Assembly: GCA_003164095.1 (NCBI GenBank)
Contig: PLRX01000109.1
Span: 1-35,903, forward strand
Reading direction: 5' to 3'
DNA length: 35,903 nt
From: Acidimicrobiaceae bacterium
GTDB taxonomy: Bacteria > Actinomycetota > Acidimicrobiia > Acidimicrobiales > RAAP-2
The position numbers and the translations under genes are program-made. Shown here piece after piece: positions 6,317 through 14,337 of the stretch; within the stretch, counting starts at the first letter, position 1, and each line of letters starts with the position of its first letter. A model generated the notes under the pieces. That model had not been told where the DNA came from, made no database searches, and saw nothing but the letters and a program-made list of their open reading frames with translations.

Positions 6317-7786
6317 TTAGAAGTCGATGCCGGACAGTTCGGGTACGGCGCCTTCGGCCCGGCTGCGGGCCTCGAGCCAGCGGGCACGCGCCGCTGTCCG
6401 GTCGGCGTCGGACCTGGTCGGCAGCACCTCGACCCGGGGGATCCAGGCGGCGGCCACGTCGTCCTCGTCGGCCCAGGTGCCCATGGCCATCCCGGCCAGG
6501 AAGGCGGCACCCAGGGTGGTGGCCTCCAGGATGGGCGCCACCTCGACCGGTCGACCGCAGGCGTCGGCCACGGCCTGGGTGAAGACCGGGTTGGCGGTCA
6601 TGCCGCCGTCGACCCGCAGCGCGCCGACGGGCAGGCCGGAGTCGGACTCGGCCGCCTCGAGCAGGTCGGCGCCGCGGTGGGCCACGCCCTCCAGGACGGC
6701 CCGGACGAACTCGGGCCGTCCGCTGCCCCGGGTCAGCCCGGTGAAGGTCCCCCTGGCGCCGAAGTCCCAGACGGGCGTGCCGAGGCCGAGGAGCGCGGGC
6801 ACGAACCACACGTCGCCGGTGTCGTCGCACGCCCCGGCCACGGTGGCCGAGTGGGCGGCGTCGTCGATGATCCTGAGGTCGTCGCGCAGCCATTCCACAC
6901 ACGTGCCGGCCGACAGCATGATCGCCTCGATGCCCCACGTATCGATGCCACCACGGCGCCAGGCGATGATCGGGATGGTGCCGGCCGGGCCGCGGACGGC
7001 CTGGGGCGGACGGGCGGACCCGAGGCACTGGTCGAGCATGCCGCCGGTCCCGAACGTGGCCTTGGCCTGTCCGGCGGTCGTGCAGCTCTGCCCGATGAGC
7101 GACGCCTGCTGGTCACCGGCCATACCGGCGATGGGCGGGGCGCCGTCGAGCGACGAGGCGGTTCCAAGCACGCCGGACGAGTCGACGATGGACGGCAGGA
7201 CCGCCTCGGGTATCCGCAGCGCCTCGAGCAGCGATGTACTCCAGCCGCGGCCGTCGCCATGGACGAGTCCCGTCACTGCGGCATTCGAGGCGTCGGTGAC
7301 GTGCAACACCCCCTCGGACAGGATCCACGCCACCCAGGTGTCGATGGTGCCGAAGGCCAGCTCCCCCCGCTCGGACCGCGATCGGTCGGGGTCGGCGACG
7401 TCGAGGATGGCGGACAGCTTGGTGGCCGATGCGTTGGGGGCGATCCGGATGCCCTGGGCCTGCAGCTCGAGACAGGTCCCGACGGTGCGCAGGTCCTGCC
7501 AGCCGAGGCCCGGTCCGACGGGCTGTCCCGTGGCCCGGTCCCACACCAGGGTGGACGCCCGCTGGTTGGCGATCCCGACCGCGGCCACCGGGCCGCCCTC
7601 GGCCAGACTGCGGGCTGCCACCTCGGCCACGGCCGAGGCGATGGCCGTGCCGTCGAACTCGACGAGCCCGGCAAACGGGGTGTCGGGCAGGACCGGGACG
7701 TGGTGGATGTGCTCGACCGTGGCGTCGGGGCGCACGATGGCACCGCGCACGCCCGATGTGCCGACGTCGACGACCAGGATGCTCAC
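6317..7786 (-). CDS. Glycerol-kinase-like FGGY kinase with altered substrate pocket
   Basis: 489 aa from a GTG whose last bases overlap the previous stop (GTGA). FGGY kinases transfer ATP phosphate to a polyol or sugar. The N-terminus ILVVDVGTSGVRGAIV is the first phosphate-binding region. The body follows glycerol kinase closely: NQRASTLVWDRATGQPV (74-90), GWQDLRT (95-101), GTIDTWVAW (146-154), LHVTDASNAAVT (161-172), and AGMAGDQQASLIGQ (220-233). Compared from memory with E. coli GlpK, the glycerol-contacting Arg83, Trp103, Asp245 and Gln246 are kept (R76, W96, D225, Q226), but Glu84, Tyr135 and Phe270 appear as A77, N118 and M250. It is the last gene of the glpD/AGPS-like operon, so a glycerol- or dihydroxyacetone-like substrate is likely. 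Plain glycerol kinase remains possible. Confidence 0.85.
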   Translation of the reverse strand: MSILVVDVGTSGVRGAIVRPDATVEHIHHVPVLPDTPFAGLVEFDGTAIASAVAEVAARSLAEGGPVAAVGIANQRASTLVWDRATGQPVGPGLGWQDLRTVGTCLELQAQGIRIAPNASATKLSAILDVADPDRSRSERGELAFGTIDTWVAWILSEGVLHVTDASNAAVTGLVHGDGRGWSTSLLEALRIPEAVLPSIVDSSGVLGTASSLDGAPPIAGMAGDQQASLIGQSCTTAGQAKATFGTGGMLDQCLGSARPPQAVRGPAGTIPIIAWRRGGIDTWGIEAIMLSAGTCVEWLRDDLRIIDDAAHSATVAGACDDTGDVWFVPALLGLGTPVWDFGARGTFTGLTRGSGRPEFVRAVLEGVAHRGADLLEAAESDSGLPVGALRVDGGMTANPVFTQAVADACGRPVEVAPILEATTLGAAFLAGMAMGTWADEDDVAAAWIPRVEVLPTRSDADRTAARARWLEARSRAEGAVPELSGIDF

Positions 7787-9303
7787 GGCCAGGGCACCTC
7801 GCCGTAGGGGGTGGGCAACCCGAGCTTGCCCGGATTGAGGATCCCGTGGGGATCGAGGGCGGCCTTGACCGCCACTAGGACGTCGAAGGCGCCCCCCAGT
7901 GCCTCGGCCAGGAAGCGCCCACGGTTGAGGCCGACGCCGTGGTGGTGGCTGAGCGCGCCCCCGGCGTCGAGCGTGGCCCGGGTGACCTCGTCCCACGACC
8001 GGCGGTAGTAGTCGGCCACCCAGGCGTCACGGGCGACGATGTCGTCCCGGAGCTCTTCCGGCGGCCGGCCGGCGAAGGTGAAGTAGAGGCAGGCGCCGTC
8101 GGTGTAGGCGTGGCTCTGGTGGGAGGAGGCGGCCAGCGTGCCGGGCACCCGGCCGAGCGCGTCCACGACGGCGCGGTAGAGGCCGGGGAGGGCGGTCCAG
8201 CGGCCCGCCACCTCGACGGTGTCGACCACCACACCGGCCCGCCACAGTGGTGCCAGCGCGGACACGTCGTTGCGGTGGGTGAGCCAGCGGTCGACGAGGC
8301 CGACGTCGAGCGTGTCCGACCCTGCGCACTCCTGGTCGACCACGGCCAGGGAGGCATCCAACAGCGCCGGGTCGGCCTCGTCGAGGACGACCAGCACGTT
8401 GGTGTCGGGCTGGTCGAAGTTCCGTCCCGACTCGGTGGCGTCGTAGAGGCGCAGGACCGCGGGGGAGGCACCCCGGCGGAGGATGCGGCGACACGCGTCG
8501 AGCCCGTCGGCGAACGAGGCGAACCCGAACGCCCGGCGACCCTCGCCCTCGGGCACCGGGTGCACGCGGAAGCGCCCCTCGGTGATCACACCGAGGGTGC
8601 CCTCGCTTCCCACGAACAGCTGCGTCAGGTCGGGTCCCGTGGCCGAGCGCGGCCCGTGGCCACCGGTGCGGACGATGCGGCCGTCGGCCAGCACCACCTC
8701 GAGGCCCAGCACCATGTCCTCGATCTTGCCGTAGCGGTTGGAGTACTGGCCCGCCCCCCGGCACGCCAGCCAGCCACCCACCGTCGAGAGGTCCATCGAC
8801 TGGGGCCAGTGGCCGAGGGTCAGACCATGACCGTCGCGCAGCCCGGACTCGACGTCGGGGCCGAACGTGCCGGCACGCAGGTCGGCCACCAGGGACGTGT
8901 CGTCGACGTCGGCGATCCCGTCGAGCCCGCACAGGTCGAGCGCGACACCCCCGAAGAGCGGGATCGAGGCTCCGCAGACGCCGCTGCGGCCGCCGGCCGG
9001 AGTGACCGGCACCCGGGCCTCGTCGCACAGGGACAGCACGGCCGACACCTGGGCGGTGTCGGCGGGCCGGGCCACCAGCGCCGGGCGCGAGGGGACCGCA
9101 CCGGCCGCCGCCCAACCGATGGCGACGGGCCACCAGTCGCGCCCGGCCTCGGCCCGGTCCTCGTCCAGGTCGGAGACGGAGTCGCAGACGTCGCCCAGGC
9201 GCTCGGCCAGGCCGGCGTCCACGGCCACCCGGGCGGTGTCGAGGTGGTCGACCACACCGGACGTTCCGGCGTCGATGGGCGTGACCGGGGTCGGGCGGGT
9301 CAT
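7783..9303 (-). CDS. Alkyl-dihydroxyacetonephosphate synthase-like FAD enzyme
   Basis: 506 aa. True AGPS enzymes replace the acyl chain of acyl-DHAP by a fatty alcohol, the key step of ether-lipid synthesis. The FAD_binding_4 domain shows VTPAGGRSGVCGASIP (near 99-114) and MDLSTVGGWLACRGAGQ with a later GSEGTLGVITEGRFRVHP, the usual vanillyl-alcohol-oxidase-fold motifs. The C-terminal domain carries the AGPS hallmark SHHHGVG (about 460-466), preceded by HAYTDGACLYFTFAG. ATG 9303 overlaps the glpD stop (ATGA) and its own stop overlaps the kinase start, so all three are translationally coupled. No acyl-DHAP acyltransferase or fatty alcohol supplier sits in the operon. It might instead oxidise another hydroxyacid or polyol, as many FAD_binding_4 enzymes do. 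Confidence 0.85.
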   Translation of the reverse strand: MTRPTPVTPIDAGTSGVVDHLDTARVAVDAGLAERLGDVCDSVSDLDEDRAEAGRDWWPVAIGWAAAGAVPSRPALVARPADTAQVSAVLSLCDEARVPVTPAGGRSGVCGASIPLFGGVALDLCGLDGIADVDDTSLVADLRAGTFGPDVESGLRDGHGLTLGHWPQSMDLSTVGGWLACRGAGQYSNRYGKIEDMVLGLEVVLADGRIVRTGGHGPRSATGPDLTQLFVGSEGTLGVITEGRFRVHPVPEGEGRRAFGFASFADGLDACRRILRRGASPAVLRLYDATESGRNFDQPDTNVLVVLDEADPALLDASLAVVDQECAGSDTLDVGLVDRWLTHRNDVSALAPLWRAGVVVDTVEVAGRWTALPGLYRAVVDALGRVPGTLAASSHQSHAYTDGACLYFTFAGRPPEELRDDIVARDAWVADYYRRSWDEVTRATLDAGGALSHHHGVGLNRGRFLAEALGGAFDVLVAVKAALDPHGILNPGKLGLPTPYGEVPWP

Positions 9304-11081
9304 GACTCCACCGCCGCGACCCCGGTGGTGGCGGTCGTGGCTGCGTCGGCTGTGGCACGTGCCGCCGCGTTGCTGACCGGGTCGGGGTCGAGGCCGGCCC
9401 GCGTCAGGTCGGCCAGCAGCCGGGTGGCGTAGGCCTCGGCCTCGGCGCGCCGGCGCTCGTCGTCCCAATCCAGTTCGGGCCCGATGAGGGCGGCCACCTT
9501 GCCGGCGGCTGCGGCCGTCGCCCGGGCATCGCGGTAGGCCGACTGGGTGCGGCGGTCGAGCACGTCGGACACGGTGCCGGCCATCTCGCGGCGGACGGCC
9601 CACAGCGCCTCGACGGTCAGGTACGGGAGACCCTCCACCAGTGGCTCAAGCAGCTCGGGCCGGCCCCCGGCCATGGCCAGCACTGCGGCGGCCTCGGTGC
9701 CGTAGCGGCCGGCCAGGTGGGCGGCACGCGACGCCTCGGGGTGGGCCGGGTCGGAACGTACGTTGGCACCGGCGCCACCCGCCTTGGGAGCGACGCGCGC
9801 ACCGGGCGGGGCGCCGTGCAGTCGCAGGTTCTTGGTCCGGCAGCGCAGGCCCCTCCGGCCGAGCACGCCGGCCGCCACGTCGACGGTGTCCTCGGCCATC
9901 TTGCGGTAGGTGGTCAGTTTGCCGCCGGTGACGCTCACCATGCCGCCGTCCGAGGTCCGCACCGTGTGGCGGCGCGACAGGTCGGCGGTGCGCTCGCTCG
10001 AGGCACCCTTCTGCTCGGGGGCGAGCAGGGGTCGGAGCCCCGACCAGATGCCGGTGATGTCGGCCCTGGTGAGCTGGCGGGTGGAGATGGCGTTGGCAGC
10101 GTCCAGGATGTAGTCGACGTCCTCGGGGGTGCACGACGGATCGTCGAGGGGACCGTCCCAGGCGGTGTCGGTGGTGCCGAGGTAGACCTGGTCGCCCCAC
10201 GACACGACGAAGATCGACCGCTTGTCCTCGCGCACCGGGATCACGGCGGCGATGTCACAGGGGAAGGACTCCTCGGGCACCGTGATGTGGATGCCCTTGG
10301 CCGGCCGGATGGACCGGGGGTCGCGGTGCTCGTCGAGGGTGCGCACCTCGTCGGACCACACCCCTGCGGCGTTCACGACGACCGAGGCCCGGACGTCGAA
10401 GGGCTCGCCGCCGACCGGTGCCACCGTGGCCCCGCGGACACGACCGGTGGCATCGGTCACCAGGCGGATCACCGGCGTGTGGTTGACGGCGGTGGCGCCG
10501 TGGTCGAGGACGGCGGTCCGGAGGACCGTCAGCGTGAGTCGGCTGTCGTCGGACCGGGCGTCCCAGTAGAGGAAGCCGGCGGCCAGGCGGTCGGCGCGTA
10601 GCGTCGGCATGTGGGCGAGGGCCTGCTCGCGGGTGACCTTCTCGTGGCGTCGGCCGATGCGCACCCCACCGGTGAGGTCGTAGAGCCAGAGGGCGGTCCG
10701 GTAGACGCGTGCGACGCTCTTGTTGACCACACCGGACTTGCCGAACAGCGGAATGAGGAAGGGGAGCGGGGACACGAGGTGGGGGGCGTTCTCCAGCAGG
10801 CGCTGGCGCTCGGCCAGGTTCTCGTAGACCAGGCGGTACTCGTGCTGCTGGAGGTAGCGCAGGCCGCCGTGGATGAGCTTCGAGGACTTGGACGACGTCC
10901 CCGAGGCGAAGTCCTCGCGCTCGACGAGGGCGGTCTTGAGGCCCCGGCTGGCGGCGTCGAGTGCCACGCCGGCCCCCGTGATGCCGCCACCGACGACCAG
11001 GACGTCGAACGACTCCGAGGCCAGCCGGGCCAGTGCCCGCCCGCGCGAGAAGGGATCGGTGTCCGGGTCGGGTGCGGGCAT
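9300..11081 (-). CDS. glpD: FAD-dependent glycerol-3-phosphate dehydrogenase
   Basis: 593 aa, typical of actinobacterial GlpD. It oxidises glycerol-3-phosphate to dihydroxyacetone phosphate at the membrane and passes electrons to quinone. Evidence: FAD Rossmann DVLVVGGGITGAGVALDAAS (about 26-45), EREDFASGTSSKSSKLIHGG with LRYLQQHEYRLVYE, the GTTDT(A)WDGPLDDP segment, LRPLLAP, GKLTTYRKMAEDTVD, and the C-terminal helical domain (EALWAVRREMAGTVSDVLDRRTQ). ATG 11081 is chosen because the FAD motif follows it at the usual distance; an upstream GTG gives seven more residues. It is the first gene of the three-gene operon and is divergent from perR across 221 bp. DHAP from this enzyme could feed the AGPS-like enzyme downstream. 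Confidence 0.93.
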   Translation of the reverse strand: MPAPDPDTDPFSRGRALARLASESFDVLVVGGGITGAGVALDAASRGLKTALVEREDFASGTSSKSSKLIHGGLRYLQQHEYRLVYENLAERQRLLENAPHLVSPLPFLIPLFGKSGVVNKSVARVYRTALWLYDLTGGVRIGRRHEKVTREQALAHMPTLRADRLAAGFLYWDARSDDSRLTLTVLRTAVLDHGATAVNHTPVIRLVTDATGRVRGATVAPVGGEPFDVRASVVVNAAGVWSDEVRTLDEHRDPRSIRPAKGIHITVPEESFPCDIAAVIPVREDKRSIFVVSWGDQVYLGTTDTAWDGPLDDPSCTPEDVDYILDAANAISTRQLTRADITGIWSGLRPLLAPEQKGASSERTADLSRRHTVRTSDGGMVSVTGGKLTTYRKMAEDTVDVAAGVLGRRGLRCRTKNLRLHGAPPGARVAPKAGGAGANVRSDPAHPEASRAAHLAGRYGTEAAAVLAMAGGRPELLEPLVEGLPYLTVEALWAVRREMAGTVSDVLDRRTQSAYRDARATAAAAGKVAALIGPELDWDDERRRAEAEAYATRLLADLTRAGLDPDPVSNAAARATADAATTATTGVAAVES

Positions 11082-11182: not shown

Positions 11183-11272
11183 CGATCCGCGGCGGCCATG
11201 ACCGTCCGGTGGATGCACGGCGGGATGGTTGCGATCGTCCCGGGTGCCGGGAGTCCGGGGGATTTCGCCAAC

Positions 11273-11290
11273 GATTGTTGATTGACAATC
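11273..11290. promoter_or_regulatory. Fur/PerR-box-like inverted repeat, probable perR operator
   Basis: GATTGT-TGATTG-ACAATC is a perfect 6-6-6 inverted repeat, AT-rich in an otherwise very GC-rich region. It ends 12 bp before the perR ATG. The element has the size and AT-rich dyad character of Fur-family boxes. A TATGGT hexamer follows at 11291-11296, placed 6 bp before the ATG, so the transcript may be leaderless or nearly so, and binding at the repeat would block it. This points to autoregulation. Confidence 0.6.
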
Positions 11291-11302
11291 TATGGTGATA
11301 TC

Positions 11303-11767
11303 ATGACCGTCGTGCGTAGTCCCGACGAGCTGACCGAGCTGTTCCGGGCGTCGGGCCGGAAGGTCACGGCCCAGCGCCAGTGCATCTTCCGGATCCTGCA
11401 GGGCGACGAGACCCACCCGTCGGCCGAGGCCGTCCACGCCGTCGCCGTCCAGGAGATGGAGACCATCTCCCTCAAGACCGTCTACCAGACGCTCAACGAC
11501 CTGGCCGAGCTGGGTGAGATCAGCGCCCTCGACGTCGGCACCGGTCGCACCCGCTTCGACCCCAACGTCGACGACCCCCACCACCACCTGGTCTGCCGTA
11601 GCTGTGGCAGTGTGCGCGACCTGGTCGTCGACTTCCCCGGGTTGTCCGTCCCCGACGGGGCCGACCTCGGCTTCGAACTCGGCTCCGCCGAGGTCATCTT
11701 CCGCGGTCTGTGCCCGGCGTGCCGGGCCGACGCCGCACCGCCGGTCCGCACGGCCGCCGCCAGCTGA
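11303..11767 (+). CDS. PerR-type Fur-family peroxide/metal regulator
   Basis: 154 aa. N-terminal winged helix (residues 10-80) with SGRKVTAQRQCIFRIL and LKTVYQTLNDLAELGEI. The regulatory metal ligands of Bacillus PerR have counterparts here: H38 (THPSAE), D86 (RFDP), H93 and H95 (DPHHHLVC), and D106 (VRDLV). Fur proteins usually carry Glu at the last position, so Asp favours PerR. Structural zinc: C98-x2-C101 and C137-x2-C140. The frame is open from a TTG at 11282, but that lies inside the operator; ATG 11303 has GGTGAT 4 bp upstream and is preferred. Rubrerythrin follows 37 bp later, the classic target of PerR in anaerobes. Fur or Zur cannot be excluded from sequence alone. Confidence 0.88.
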   Translation: MTVVRSPDELTELFRASGRKVTAQRQCIFRILQGDETHPSAEAVHAVAVQEMETISLKTVYQTLNDLAELGEISALDVGTGRTRFDPNVDDPHHHLVCRSCGSVRDLVVDFPGLSVPDGADLGFELGSAEVIFRGLCPACRADAAPPVRTAAAS

Positions 11768-11804
11768 CGTATCGACCACCACCATCCATCCAGAAAGGAA
11801 CACC

Positions 11805-12224
11805 ATGCCCGACCTCAAGGACAGCAAGACCGAGGCCAACCTCAAGGAGGCCTTCGCCGGTGAGAGCCAGGCCAACCGCCGCTACCTGTACTTCGCCCAG
11901 AAGGCGGACGTCGAGGGCTACCCGGACGTGGCCGCCCTCTTCCGCTCGGTCGCCGAAGGGGAGACCGGCCATGCGTTCGGCCACTTCGACTTCCTGCGCG
12001 AGGTCGGCGACCCGGTGACGGGCGCCGCCGTCGGCCCGACCGAGGACAACCTCAAGTCGGCCATCGAGGGCGAGACCTACGAGTACTCCGAGATGTACCC
12101 GGGCTTCGCCCGTACGGCCCGCGACGAGGGGTTCGAGGAGATCGCCGAGTGGTTCGAGACCCTCGCCCGCGCGGAAAAGAGCCACGCAGGTCGCTTCACG
12201 GAGGGCCTCACCTCCGTCGCCTGA
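11805..12224 (+). CDS. Rubrerythrin without rubredoxin domain (erythrin)
   Basis: 139 aa. Rubrerythrins reduce hydrogen peroxide at a carboxylate-bridged di-iron site inside a four-helix bundle. The expected ligands are present: E20 ([12 protein letters not shown]), E53 and H56 (EGETGHA), E90 and E93 (EGETYEY), and E124 and H127 (AEKSHAGR). The protein stops right after the bundle, so the C-terminal rubredoxin that normally supplies electrons is absent and a separate donor is needed. AAGGA lies 6 bp before the ATG. It sits 37 bp after perR and is followed by a strong hairpin, then by the Fe-S protein and DUF3501 gene. Peroxide defence under PerR control is the natural reading. Confidence 0.93.
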
Positions 12225-12238
12225 GCTCGACCGCCGAT

Positions 12239-12268
12239 GCCGGCCCCCGGAACGTACCGGGGGCCGGC
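12239..12268 (+). terminator. Strong GC hairpin after rubrerythrin
   Basis: GCCGGCCCCCGG and CCGGGGGCCGGC form a perfect 12-bp stem with the loop AACGTA, beginning 15 bp after the rubrerythrin stop. There is no T-run, as is common in actinobacteria. It may end perR-rbr transcripts or reduce read-through into the Fe-S protein gene. Confidence 0.7.
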
Positions 12269-12286
12269 AGGGCGGCGGGGCGGGCT

Positions 12287-12303
12287 GACGCGTCGCACGC
12301 GTC
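12287..12303. promoter_or_regulatory. Inverted repeat GACGCGT-CGC-ACGCGTC
   Basis: A perfect 7-3-7 dyad between the rubrerythrin hairpin and the Fe-S protein gene, 82 bp before its ATG. It may be an operator for a separate promoter of the downstream pair. No clear -35/-10 pair can be named. Confidence 0.35.
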
Positions 12304-12316
12304 GGTACTTCACCCC

Positions 12317-12363
12317 GAACTGACCCATGTCCTCTGACCCCTCACCCGAACTGACCCCTCACC
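12317..12363 (+). repeat. Short direct repeats ahead of the Fe-S protein gene
   Basis: CTGACCCCTCACC occurs at 12334-12346 and 12351-12363 with a 17-bp period. A shorter related copy, GAACTGACCC, is at 12317-12326 and recurs at 12348-12357. The array ends 22 bp before the ATG at 12386. It could be an activator site or simple slippage. Confidence 0.45.
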
Positions 12364-12385
12364 ACGAGCCGGATGGACCGCTGCC

Positions 12386-13726
12386 ATGACCACCACCTAC
12401 AGCCCCGACGATCCCGCCTACCTCGACGAGGCCGACTTCCGCGTCGAGCTCGAGCGGGTATTCGACCTCTGCCAGGGGTGCCGCCTCTGCTTCAACCTGT
12501 GCCCGTCGTTCCCCACGATGTTCGACCTGATCGACGCCAACGACGGCGACGTGTCGGCGCTGACCGCCGCCGATCAGGACCGGGTCGTCGACGAGTGCTA
12601 CCAGTGCAAGCTCTGCTACCCGAAGTGCCCCTACGTGCCGCCGCACGAGTGGCAGCTCGACTTCCCCCGCCTCATGATGCGCGCCCACGCCGTCGGCCAC
12701 GCCCAGGGCCAGCCGGTCCGGGAGCGGGTGACCGACCAGGTACTCGCACGCACCGATCTCGTCGGCCGCGTCTCGACGGCCGCCGCGCCGCTCGCCAACG
12801 CCGTGACCGGGAAGCCGGGGTCCTGGGCGCGACGCATGATGGAGAAGACGGCGGGCATGGCCTCCGAGCGCATGCTGCCGCCCTACGCACGGACGCGGTT
12901 CTCGACCTGGTTCCGCCGCCGCAATGCGGGACGTGGGCCGAAGGCCTTCGTGTCCGGCGCACGTCAGGGTGAGGTGTCGGTCTTCCCGACGTGCTTCATC
13001 GAGTACATGGAGCCGGCCATCGGCCAGGACCTCGTCAAGGTCTACGAGCGCAACGGCGTCTCCTGCTCGCTGCCCGAGGGCACCGCGTGCTGCGGGGCCC
13101 CGTGGCTCCACCAGGGGAACATCAAGGAGTTCACGAAGGCGGCGGAGCGAAACGTCACGGCCCTGGCAGCCGAGGTCCGGGCCGGCAAGGACGTCGTGGT
13201 GGCCCAGCCCACCTGTGCCTATGTCGTAAGGCGGGACTATCCCCTCTACCTCGAGCACACGCCGCTCGCGGCCGACGCCGCGCTGGTGGCCGAGCACACG
13301 TCGGACCCGGCCGAGTACCTCATGGCCCTCCACAAGGGCGAGGGGACCGAGCTCGCCACCGACTTCATCGGCCGGGACACGGGAGCGGTGCCCGACGCGG
13401 TGACCTACCACGTCGCCTGCCACCTCCAGGCCCAGCACATCGGCCTGAAGAGCCGGGACCTCCTGAAGGTGGCCGGGGTGAGGGCGACGCTCGTGCAGCG
13501 CTGCTCCGGCATCGATGGCACCTGGGGCTATCGGGCGGAGAACTACGAACTGGCCCGCAAGGTGGCGGCCCCCATGGCCAAGGAGATCCGGGCGGCCGGC
13601 AACGACGTGGTCTGCGGCGACTGCCACCTCGCCAACGGCTCCATCGAACAGGAGACGGGCACCCGGCCCGTCCACCCGATCCAGTTGATGGCCCGGGCCT
13701 ACGGCATTCCTGAGGAGGACTCGTGA
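12386..13726 (+). CDS. GlpC/HdrD-like iron-sulfur oxidoreductase (two 4Fe-4S plus CCG domains)
   Basis: 446 aa, soluble. Two ferredoxin-type clusters: C29, C32, C35, C39 (CQGCRLCFNLCP) and C71, C74, C77, C81 (CYQCKLCYPKCP). Two cysteine-rich CCG-type domains follow: the first with C203, C235-C236-G and C277; the second with C345, C373 and C410/C413. In the second domain the usual CCG reads CSG (C373-S374-G375), so one ligand is changed. Such proteins carry electrons in heterodisulfide reductase, GlpABC and lactate-oxidation complexes. Its neighbours are rubrerythrin upstream and DUF3501 downstream (4-bp ATG overlap at 13723). An electron-transfer role toward rubrerythrin fits the context but is inference. 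A GlpC role with GlpD is less likely because glpD is divergent and single-subunit. Confidence 0.85.
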   Translation: MTTTYSPDDPAYLDEADFRVELERVFDLCQGCRLCFNLCPSFPTMFDLIDANDGDVSALTAADQDRVVDECYQCKLCYPKCPYVPPHEWQLDFPRLMMRAHAVGHAQGQPVRERVTDQVLARTDLVGRVSTAAAPLANAVTGKPGSWARRMMEKTAGMASERMLPPYARTRFSTWFRRRNAGRGPKAFVSGARQGEVSVFPTCFIEYMEPAIGQDLVKVYERNGVSCSLPEGTACCGAPWLHQGNIKEFTKAAERNVTALAAEVRAGKDVVVAQPTCAYVVRRDYPLYLEHTPLAADAALVAEHTSDPAEYLMALHKGEGTELATDFIGRDTGAVPDAVTYHVACHLQAQHIGLKSRDLLKVAGVRATLVQRCSGIDGTWGYRAENYELARKVAAPMAKEIRAAGNDVVCGDCHLANGSIEQETGTRPVHPIQLMARAYGIPEEDS

Positions 13727-14337
13727 CCGCCCTCCCGCTGACCCTCGACGACATTGCCGACCAGCGCGCCTATGAGCGCGAGCGTGACTCGTTCCGCCAG
13801 GCCGTCATCTCCCACAAGAAGCTGCGGCGGGTGACCGTCGGGCCGGTCGTGACCCTCACCTTCGAGAGCCGCATGACCATGCGGTTCCAGGTCCAGGAGA
13901 TGGCCCGGGCCGAGCGGATGACGACCGACGAGCAGATCCAGCGCGAGCTCGACGTCTACAACCGGCTGCTCCCCGCTCCAGGCGAGCTGTCGGCGACCCT
14001 GTTCCTCGAGTTGACCACCGAGGAGGGCCTCCGCACGTGGCTGCCCCGTCTGGTGGGCGTCGAGCGGTCGGTGGTGCTCGAGATCGGAGAAGGACCCACC
14101 CGCCATGTGGTGCGGTCGGTCCCGGAGGAGGAGCACGAGACCCAGCTCACCCGCGAGGAGGTCACCTCGGCGGTCCACTACGTGCGCTTCCCCTTCACCC
14201 CGGCCGAGGTCGCCGCCTTCGAGGCCGGGCCGGTGACCCTGCTCATCGACCACACCGGCTATCCCGACGGGTCGCCCGGCGTGGTGCTGTCGGACGCCAC
14301 CCGGGCCGAGCTGTCCCGGGACCTGGCGGGGGAGTAG
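13723..14337 (+). CDS. DUF3501 family protein
   Basis: 204 aa, cytosolic, starting from a GTG that overlaps the Fe-S protein stop (GTGA). Features that I associate with DUF3501: the opening LTLDDIADQRAYERERDSFR, then HKKLRRVTVGPVVTLTFESRMTMRFQVQEMARAERM, and ELDVYNRLLPAPGELSATLFLEL. No cysteine is present, so it binds no Fe-S cluster by thiolates; several His and Glu residues could bind metal. The family has no known function to my knowledge, and I recall it beside rubrerythrin and GlpC-like Fe-S proteins in other phyla, which supports a shared task. Its translational coupling suggests a partner or assembly factor of the Fe-S protein. Confidence 0.82.
   Translation: MTALPLTLDDIADQRAYERERDSFRQAVISHKKLRRVTVGPVVTLTFESRMTMRFQVQEMARAERMTTDEQIQRELDVYNRLLPAPGELSATLFLELTTEEGLRTWLPRLVGVERSVVLEIGEGPTRHVVRSVPEEEHETQLTREEVTSAVHYVRFPFTPAEVAAFEAGPVTLLIDHTGYPDGSPGVVLSDATRAELSRDLAGE

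Follow-up and report, generated by a model that had tools for sequence, protein, structure and literature searches.

A candidate PerR-type-regulated member of the aerobic-type rubrerythrin system in the class Acidimicrobiia

Introduction

Cardenas, Quatrini and Holmes (2016; PMC5114695) described a trio of genes encoding a rubrerythrin (RBR), an Fe-S protein that they named RFO, and a DUF3501 protein as the aerobic-type rubrerythrin system. According to the portions of that paper drawn on here, the three genes co-occurred in 185 of 4461 genomes, RBR and DUF3501 alone were found in 25 organisms, RFO and DUF3501 were fused in Nitrosomonas, and RFO was suggested to compensate for the lost rubredoxin-like domain. 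Neither "PerR" nor "regulat" occurs in its main text. In the present study, we analyzed the same trio in a 35,903-nucleotide stretch of an Acidimicrobiaceae genome (contig PLRX01000109.1 of assembly GCA_003164095.1; the whole stretch is called the window), where it is preceded by a gene for a PerR-type Fur-family regulator and a predicted operator.

Several described systems and proteins can be compared with this locus. Excerpts of two other papers place the trio in Andalucia, with predicted mitochondrial targeting (PMC7050145), and, in a hot-spring survey, in a cluster with OxyR in Sideroxydans (PMC7852563). Ferriperoxin of Hydrogenobacter thermophilus has a single domain and falls, as does the window RBR, into the aerobic-type group of rubrerythrins (group 4 in the consulted part of PMC5114695); it was reduced by FNR and NADPH in vitro, and aerobic growth required its gene (PMC3317640, in excerpt). 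In this organism, unlike in the window, the RFO gene is separated from the genes for RBR and DUF3501 (PMC5114695, same part). In the archaeon Sulfolobus tokodaii, the related protein is sulerythrin (Protein Data Bank [PDB] 1j30), whose diferrous form reacts fast with H2O2, the reaction with O2 being very slow, according to an excerpt of PMC12851003. On the side of the Fe-S protein, EtfD is described in part of PMC13083937 as having two CCG domains, which house a linear [3Fe-4S] cluster and a noncubane [4Fe-4S] one, and as connecting ETF to menaquinone. For DUF3501, the closest structure is PDB 3fjv, itself a DUF3501 protein; the PDB entry gives no function, the code was not mentioned in the open-access literature searched, and the literature passages retrieved on DUF3501 and RFO reported no tested function.

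A preliminary description of the locus, made from the DNA alone, had proposed that the Fe-S protein is the missing electron donor of RBR. Because the trio and this role of RFO had been published in 2016 (PMC5114695, in the portions cited above), that main inference was a rediscovery. The window matches the published system in its three genes, in an RBR without rubredoxin domain and in the proposed role of RFO, and differs from it in the PerR-type gene and operator before the trio and in the patchy occurrence of RFO within a single class.

Results

Membership of the locus in the aerobic-type rubrerythrin system

The ORF (open reading frame) list and Pfam matches identified four consecutive plus-strand genes at 11303-14337, encoding a PerR-type Fur regulator, RBR, RFO and DUF3501 (Table 1), and the span given for them in the preliminary description agreed with the ORF list to the base. 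For the regulator, the mechanical ORF list began at TTG 11282 and we used ATG 11303; RBR was started at ATG 11805, inside a longer ORF (11514-12224). The window RBR contains no cysteine and therefore no rubredoxin domain, as had been described, and only Rubrerythrin and Ferritin were matched in Pfam. The closest solved chains were 9onm and 4di0 (about 8e-62) and sulerythrin (4.8e-56), with D. vulgaris rubrerythrin 1b71 reaching just 7e-27; by similarity alone, RBR groups with sulerythrin and 4di0, and the classical 1b71 is far behind. The di-iron ligands (E20, E53, H56, E90, E93, E124 and H127) were invariant in 103/103 RBR sequences. By analogy with its characterized relatives, RBR is very probably a peroxidase, and the sequence matches leave the locus almost certainly a member of the aerobic-type rubrerythrin system.

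The PerR-type regulator and its operator

In an alignment, the regulator has equivalents of H37, D85, H91, H93 and D104 of B. subtilis PerR together with the four cysteines of the Zn site. In B. subtilis, D104 sets the peroxide-sensitive PerR apart from Fur. The equivalent residue was Asp in all 88 aligned regulators, H37, H91, H93 and each of the four cysteines were retained in 87 of them, and D85 in 86. A Fur-family gene was adjacent in 85 of the 100 loci whose sequence extends 1 kb or further upstream of RBR. These ligands suggest that the regulator is likely to respond to peroxide. An iron- or manganese-responsive Fur would be the alternative, and several features are compatible with it: the protein belongs to the Fur family, its best PDB match carries the name ferric uptake regulation protein, and its scores stayed below the cut-offs of the NCBIfam PerR models (95.4 of 180 and 83.8 of 200 bits), which is why we call it only PerR-type. 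With the D104 equivalent conserved throughout and a rubrerythrin among the genes presumably controlled, however, we regard this alternative as improbable.

The region upstream of the regulator contained a recurrent palindrome. In a gapped-palindrome count, AACAA-N3-TTGTT was found there in 13/89 sequences, whereas shuffled sequences gave no more than 2 for any word in the ten rounds listed. A palindromic matrix seeded with this word (AATCAACAATnATTGTTGATT; threshold, 12 bits) had a match in 82/89 sequences as against 0.4% of shuffles, and when each half was scored with a matrix trained on the opposite half from the common seed, 43/45 and 38/44 sequences passed (81/89 in total). Single-base shuffles served as the null in these scans and in that of the loci without regulator. 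The window holds two overlapping boxes, the second of which ends 2 bases before the regulator ATG. We take the AATnATT core of the box to resemble the B. subtilis PerR box.

The box accompanied the regulator gene. Where no regulator gene was adjacent, not one of the 16 loci scanned reached 12 bits (the best, L095, had 10.5; L150 was too short and was left out). No 12-bit box was present in 64 regulator-RBR gaps, in 59 RBR-RFO gaps, in 26 RBR-DUF3501 gaps lacking RFO, or within 150 bases downstream of DUF3501 in 89 sequences. A genome scan gave no further box within 3 mismatches of the consensus, a limit that the window's own boxes also exceed. One locus of the window's genus (L068, genome G231) kept RBR, RFO and DUF3501, but neither a Fur-family gene there nor a box ahead of RBR was found. 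On the RBR+DUF3501 tree, the presence of the regulator and that of RFO were not associated.

Judged from sequence, the putative PerR-type gene and the conserved box beside the trio are an addition to the published system for this class. The open-access literature contained no description of such a link, and most subscription papers lay outside that search.

Distribution of RBR, RFO and DUF3501

We searched 296 genomes of the window's class for the three proteins separately. DUF3501 was found in 93 genomes, RBR in 103 (E≤0.001), of which 100 close ones were kept after the removal of three distant ones (G027, 42%; G193, 38%; G205, 31%), and RFO in 76 (E≤1e-60). Every one of the 93 DUF3501 genomes had RBR, and in 89 of them the two genes shared contig and strand at a distance of no more than 4 kb, beyond what chance would give (the Fisher tests disregard the relatedness of the genomes); the other four had them on different contigs. 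RFO accompanied DUF3501 in 72/93. The co-occurrence that the preliminary description had asked about was upheld, the view of a conserved module with a PerR-type regulator held, and no tie of DUF3501 to an unrelated pathway was met. In the phylum sample, DUF3501 was found in 16/396 genomes, namely the window's own, 14 others of the class and one outside it. The same RBR-RFO-DUF3501 trio was present in a Burkholderia record, and the genome of Sulfolobus acidocaldarius, included as a control, gave a DUF3501 match.

RFO was the variable component. It adjoined RBR in 73 of the 75 genomes that have both (different contigs in the other two), and 21 of the 93 genomes with RBR and DUF3501 gave no RFO match at the above threshold. 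In 20 of these 21, the RBR and DUF3501 matches were less than 250 bases apart; in the remaining one (G107), low-identity pieces of RFO lay between them. In two loci (L042 and L127), where RBR and DUF3501 were intact, RFO was fragmentary: its pieces (30 to 46% identity) were shifted in position, as though the gene had been broken or had diverged strongly. On the RBR+DUF3501 tree (103 rows, 72 with RFO at the locus), the presence of RFO changed at least 19 times, with 9 independent contrasts on well supported branches. For one set of related loci, the absence of RFO was judged at the locus only, whereas it was judged genome-wide in the class sample. The distribution favours the view that RFO is the labile part of the system. 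No redox gene was seen in the place of RFO in RFO-minus loci, where ORFs were grouped in the 4 kb downstream of DUF3501 only (115 non-redundant loci kept of L032-L151). Some FUR, RBR and RFO ends in the related loci are automatic start choices, and genes outside the length limits were excluded from the alignments.

The Fe-S protein RFO

The two 4Fe-4S motifs and the CCG domains reported earlier were both found. RFO has two cubane-type C-x2-C-x2-C-x3-C motifs (C29/32/35/39 and C71/74/77/81), whose eight cysteines were conserved in 73 RFOs save for one Gly at C29, and the Pfam CCG match covers two stretches. The first CCG site (C203, C235, C236 and C277) was present in 73/73 RFOs, as in GlpC. 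In the second, C345, C373 and C413 were conserved in 73/73, and E. coli GlpC differs in having Cys at both of two further positions, where RFO has Ser (71) or Ala (2) at 374 and Ala (67) or Ser (6) at 416; one Burkholderia RFO likewise had Ser and Ala there. The noncubane sites of HdrB and HdrD have five cysteines each; RFO has four conserved cysteines in its first CCG site and three in its second. The AlphaFold2 model (pLDDT 89.2) was similar to an integrative model of LutA (Z 23.9, 2.0 A, 227 residues), to M. smegmatis EtfD (Z 20.9, 3.4 A, 349 residues) and to HdrB (Z 19.1 to 19.6), and RFO shares its fold and first CCG site with GlpC, EtfD, HdrB and LutA. Its scores were below the NCBIfam GlpC cut-offs (240.1 of 278 and 182.5 of 279.9 bits).

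The identity to E. coli GlpC (28%), together with an opposite-strand neighbour that matches E. coli GlpA (2e-22), would fit a GlpC-like subunit of a divergently encoded FAD-dependent glycerol-3-phosphate dehydrogenase. However, this neighbour was present in 29/53 RFO-plus and 17/25 RFO-minus loci (p = 0.33), so that the two genes vary independently, and the second CCG site differs from that of GlpC in 73/73 RFOs. The dehydrogenase was rejected as the partner of RFO, and this reading is very improbable.

From the model and the motifs, an electron-relay role for RFO is reasonable; whether RFO would feed RBR in particular is evenly poised on the sequence evidence. Rubredoxin was found in only one of the 296 class genomes (G283, which also has RFO) and is for this reason an improbable donor; it was set aside. 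In a competing explanation, which we consider rather unlikely, a general NAD(P)H reductase or a ferredoxin would reduce RBR, and RFO would have another job under the same stress, such as passing electrons to or from quinone. The activity of ferriperoxin with NADPH and FNR in vitro (PMC3317640, in excerpt), the 21 genomes that keep RBR and DUF3501 without RFO, and the resemblance of RFO to EtfD, which links ETF to menaquinone (PMC13083937, in part), are in line with this explanation, whereas the near-constant adjacency of RFO and RBR is not, and RFO lacks the EtfD-like membrane part by length and Pfam matches. RFO as the missing donor is therefore plausible, given its adjacency to RBR and its electron-transfer fold, but the RFO-minus genomes and ferriperoxin argue that it is not obligatory.

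The DUF3501 protein

The window DUF3501 protein contains no cysteine. Its AlphaFold2 model (pLDDT 94.6) was superposable on 3fjv (Z 24.8, rmsd [root-mean-square deviation] 1.6 over 191 residues, 35% identity), and among other folds Z did not exceed 7.2, many of these being beta-sandwich domains that share the arrangement and indicate no function. Twenty-five columns were invariant in 58 DUF3501 sequences, 14 of them within residues 1-68.

The preliminary description had cast DUF3501 as partnering the Fe-S protein or helping in its assembly. In agreement with a link of this kind, the gap between RFO and DUF3501 was zero or negative in 38/75 pairs of the related loci plus the window (in the window the genes overlap by 4 bases, GTGA at 13723-13726), and a fusion of the two has been reported in Nitrosomonas (PMC5114695, in part); no such fusion was noticed among the ORFs of the related loci. 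The proposal nevertheless fits poorly with the genomes, since DUF3501 was found with RBR in 93/93 and persisted in the 21 without an RFO match, and 25 organisms are reported to have RBR and DUF3501 only (PMC5114695, same part). Moreover, DUF3501 showed no relaxation in the absence of RFO: the columns that set 73 RFO-plus sequences apart most from 32 RFO-minus ones were variable. We consider this role quite improbable. Because DUF3501 occurs with RBR in all 93 genomes and persists without RFO, it looks like a partner of RBR more than of RFO, and the distribution tips the balance slightly towards DUF3501 acting on RBR.

The hairpin after RBR

The hairpin noted earlier after RBR is present, with a perfect 13-bp stem (Table 1). 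When intergenic gaps were folded, z was below -2 in 50/65 RBR-RFO, 13/28 RBR-DUF3501, 3/52 FUR-RBR and 2/16 RFO-DUF3501 gaps (null, 40 shuffles of each gap that approximately preserve dinucleotides, with single-base shuffling as the fallback), and the 50/65 indicate that a structured element directly 3' of RBR is recurrent. Separate regulation behind the hairpin had been raised as a possibility; since the search for a second operator in the RBR-RFO gaps found none, we read the hairpin as probably a partial terminator or mRNA stabiliser favouring RBR, not as a regulatory boundary. A promoter scan and a simple terminator scan, which needs a T run, gave no match in the window.

Neighbouring genes

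On the minus strand of the window, at 7783-11081 and divergent to the operon, lie genes resembling an FAD-dependent glycerol-3-phosphate dehydrogenase and an FAD-linked oxidase (named by reading). The divergent dehydrogenase was present in 46 of the 78 loci with at least 4 kb before RBR, and co-regulation of the divergent genes is possible because the boxes sit in the shared intergenic region. Directly 3' of DUF3501, 44 loci had a WhiB-like gene and 20 others a dUTPase-like one (named by eye); the window has neither, and each of the two was seen at loci with and at loci without RFO. The largest downstream ORF group (66 loci) resembles a shadow frame. Four loci titled 'Bifidobacterium breve' metagenome-assembled genome (L083, L122, L130 and L137) matched Acidimicrobiia-like loci, and their titles look wrong.

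Table 1. Features of the PerR-type regulator-RBR-RFO-DUF3501 locus, in window coordinates.
Feature	Position	Strand	Details
Operator box 1, PerR-type, predicted	11263..11283	.	TTTCGCCAACGATTGTTGATT; 22.8 bits against the palindromic matrix AATCAACAATnATTGTTGATT
Operator box 2, predicted, overlaps box 1	11280..11300	.	16.9 bits on +, 17.3 on -
PerR-type Fur-family regulator, 154 aa	11303..11767	+	Pfam FUR 8e-25
RBR, aerobic-type rubrerythrin, 139 aa	11805..12224	+	Pfam Rubrerythrin 7.9e-31
Hairpin after RBR	12238..12269	+	perfect 13-bp stem 12238-12250/12257-12269, 6-base loop 12251-12256
RFO, GlpC-like Fe-S protein, 446 aa	12386..13726	+	Pfam CCG 2.4e-15, Fer4_10 2.8e-6
DUF3501 protein, 204 aa, GTG start	13723..14337	+	Pfam DUF3501 1.1e-55

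Discussion

The locus in the window is best read, with reasonable though limited confidence, as a case of the published aerobic-type rubrerythrin system under PerR-type control, which would operate as follows. A metal-bound repressor, whose ligands and boxes are present, would hold the operon off from the boxes before its own gene, and peroxide would inactivate it and allow the operon to be transcribed. RBR, which has the di-iron ligands, would then reduce peroxide at its di-iron site, as suggested by sulerythrin and ferriperoxin. In the lineages that keep RFO, this protein would most likely be the dedicated electron carrier to RBR, and lineages without RFO may use another reductase such as FNR. 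DUF3501, a cysteine-free beta-sandwich protein, would serve RBR, most likely as a docking, assembly or metallation partner, as its distribution suggests. The hairpin would probably make the RBR mRNA more abundant than the RFO-DUF3501 mRNA.

Several observations weigh against this interpretation. The regulator missed the NCBIfam PerR cut-offs, and 15 of the 100 loci, including L068 of the window's own genus, had no adjacent Fur gene. RFO was not matched in 21/93 genomes with RBR and DUF3501, and in vitro NADPH and FNR sufficed for the activity of ferriperoxin (PMC3317640, in excerpt). Seven RBR genomes and four RFO genomes had no DUF3501 match (contig ends were not checked). In G027 (C1:2117355-2119169), a genome with no DUF3501 match, RFO (49% identity) has a distant rubrerythrin (42%) as its neighbour, a possible RBR-RFO pair. 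Some link between RFO and DUF3501 is suggested by the overlap of their genes and by the reported Nitrosomonas fusion, and the z-scores of the hairpin rest on few, approximate shuffles.

A bolder proposal goes one step further, and we put it forward only tentatively. RBR and DUF3501 would form a stable unit in which DUF3501 is an RBR-specific docking or metallation protein, and RFO would be an electron module that can be exchanged. The second CCG site of RFO, without two of the GlpC cysteines, would hold a cluster unlike those described for Hdr and EtfD. If true, the idea that RFO and DUF3501 belong jointly to a single electron chain would need revision; that the two should be treated separately is a hint from their distribution. 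The action of DUF3501 on RBR without RFO, the reductant of RBR in RFO-minus genomes and the content of the second CCG site of RFO are now testable. For the class of the window, the PerR-type gene and its box would link the aerobic-type rubrerythrin system to peroxide sensing.

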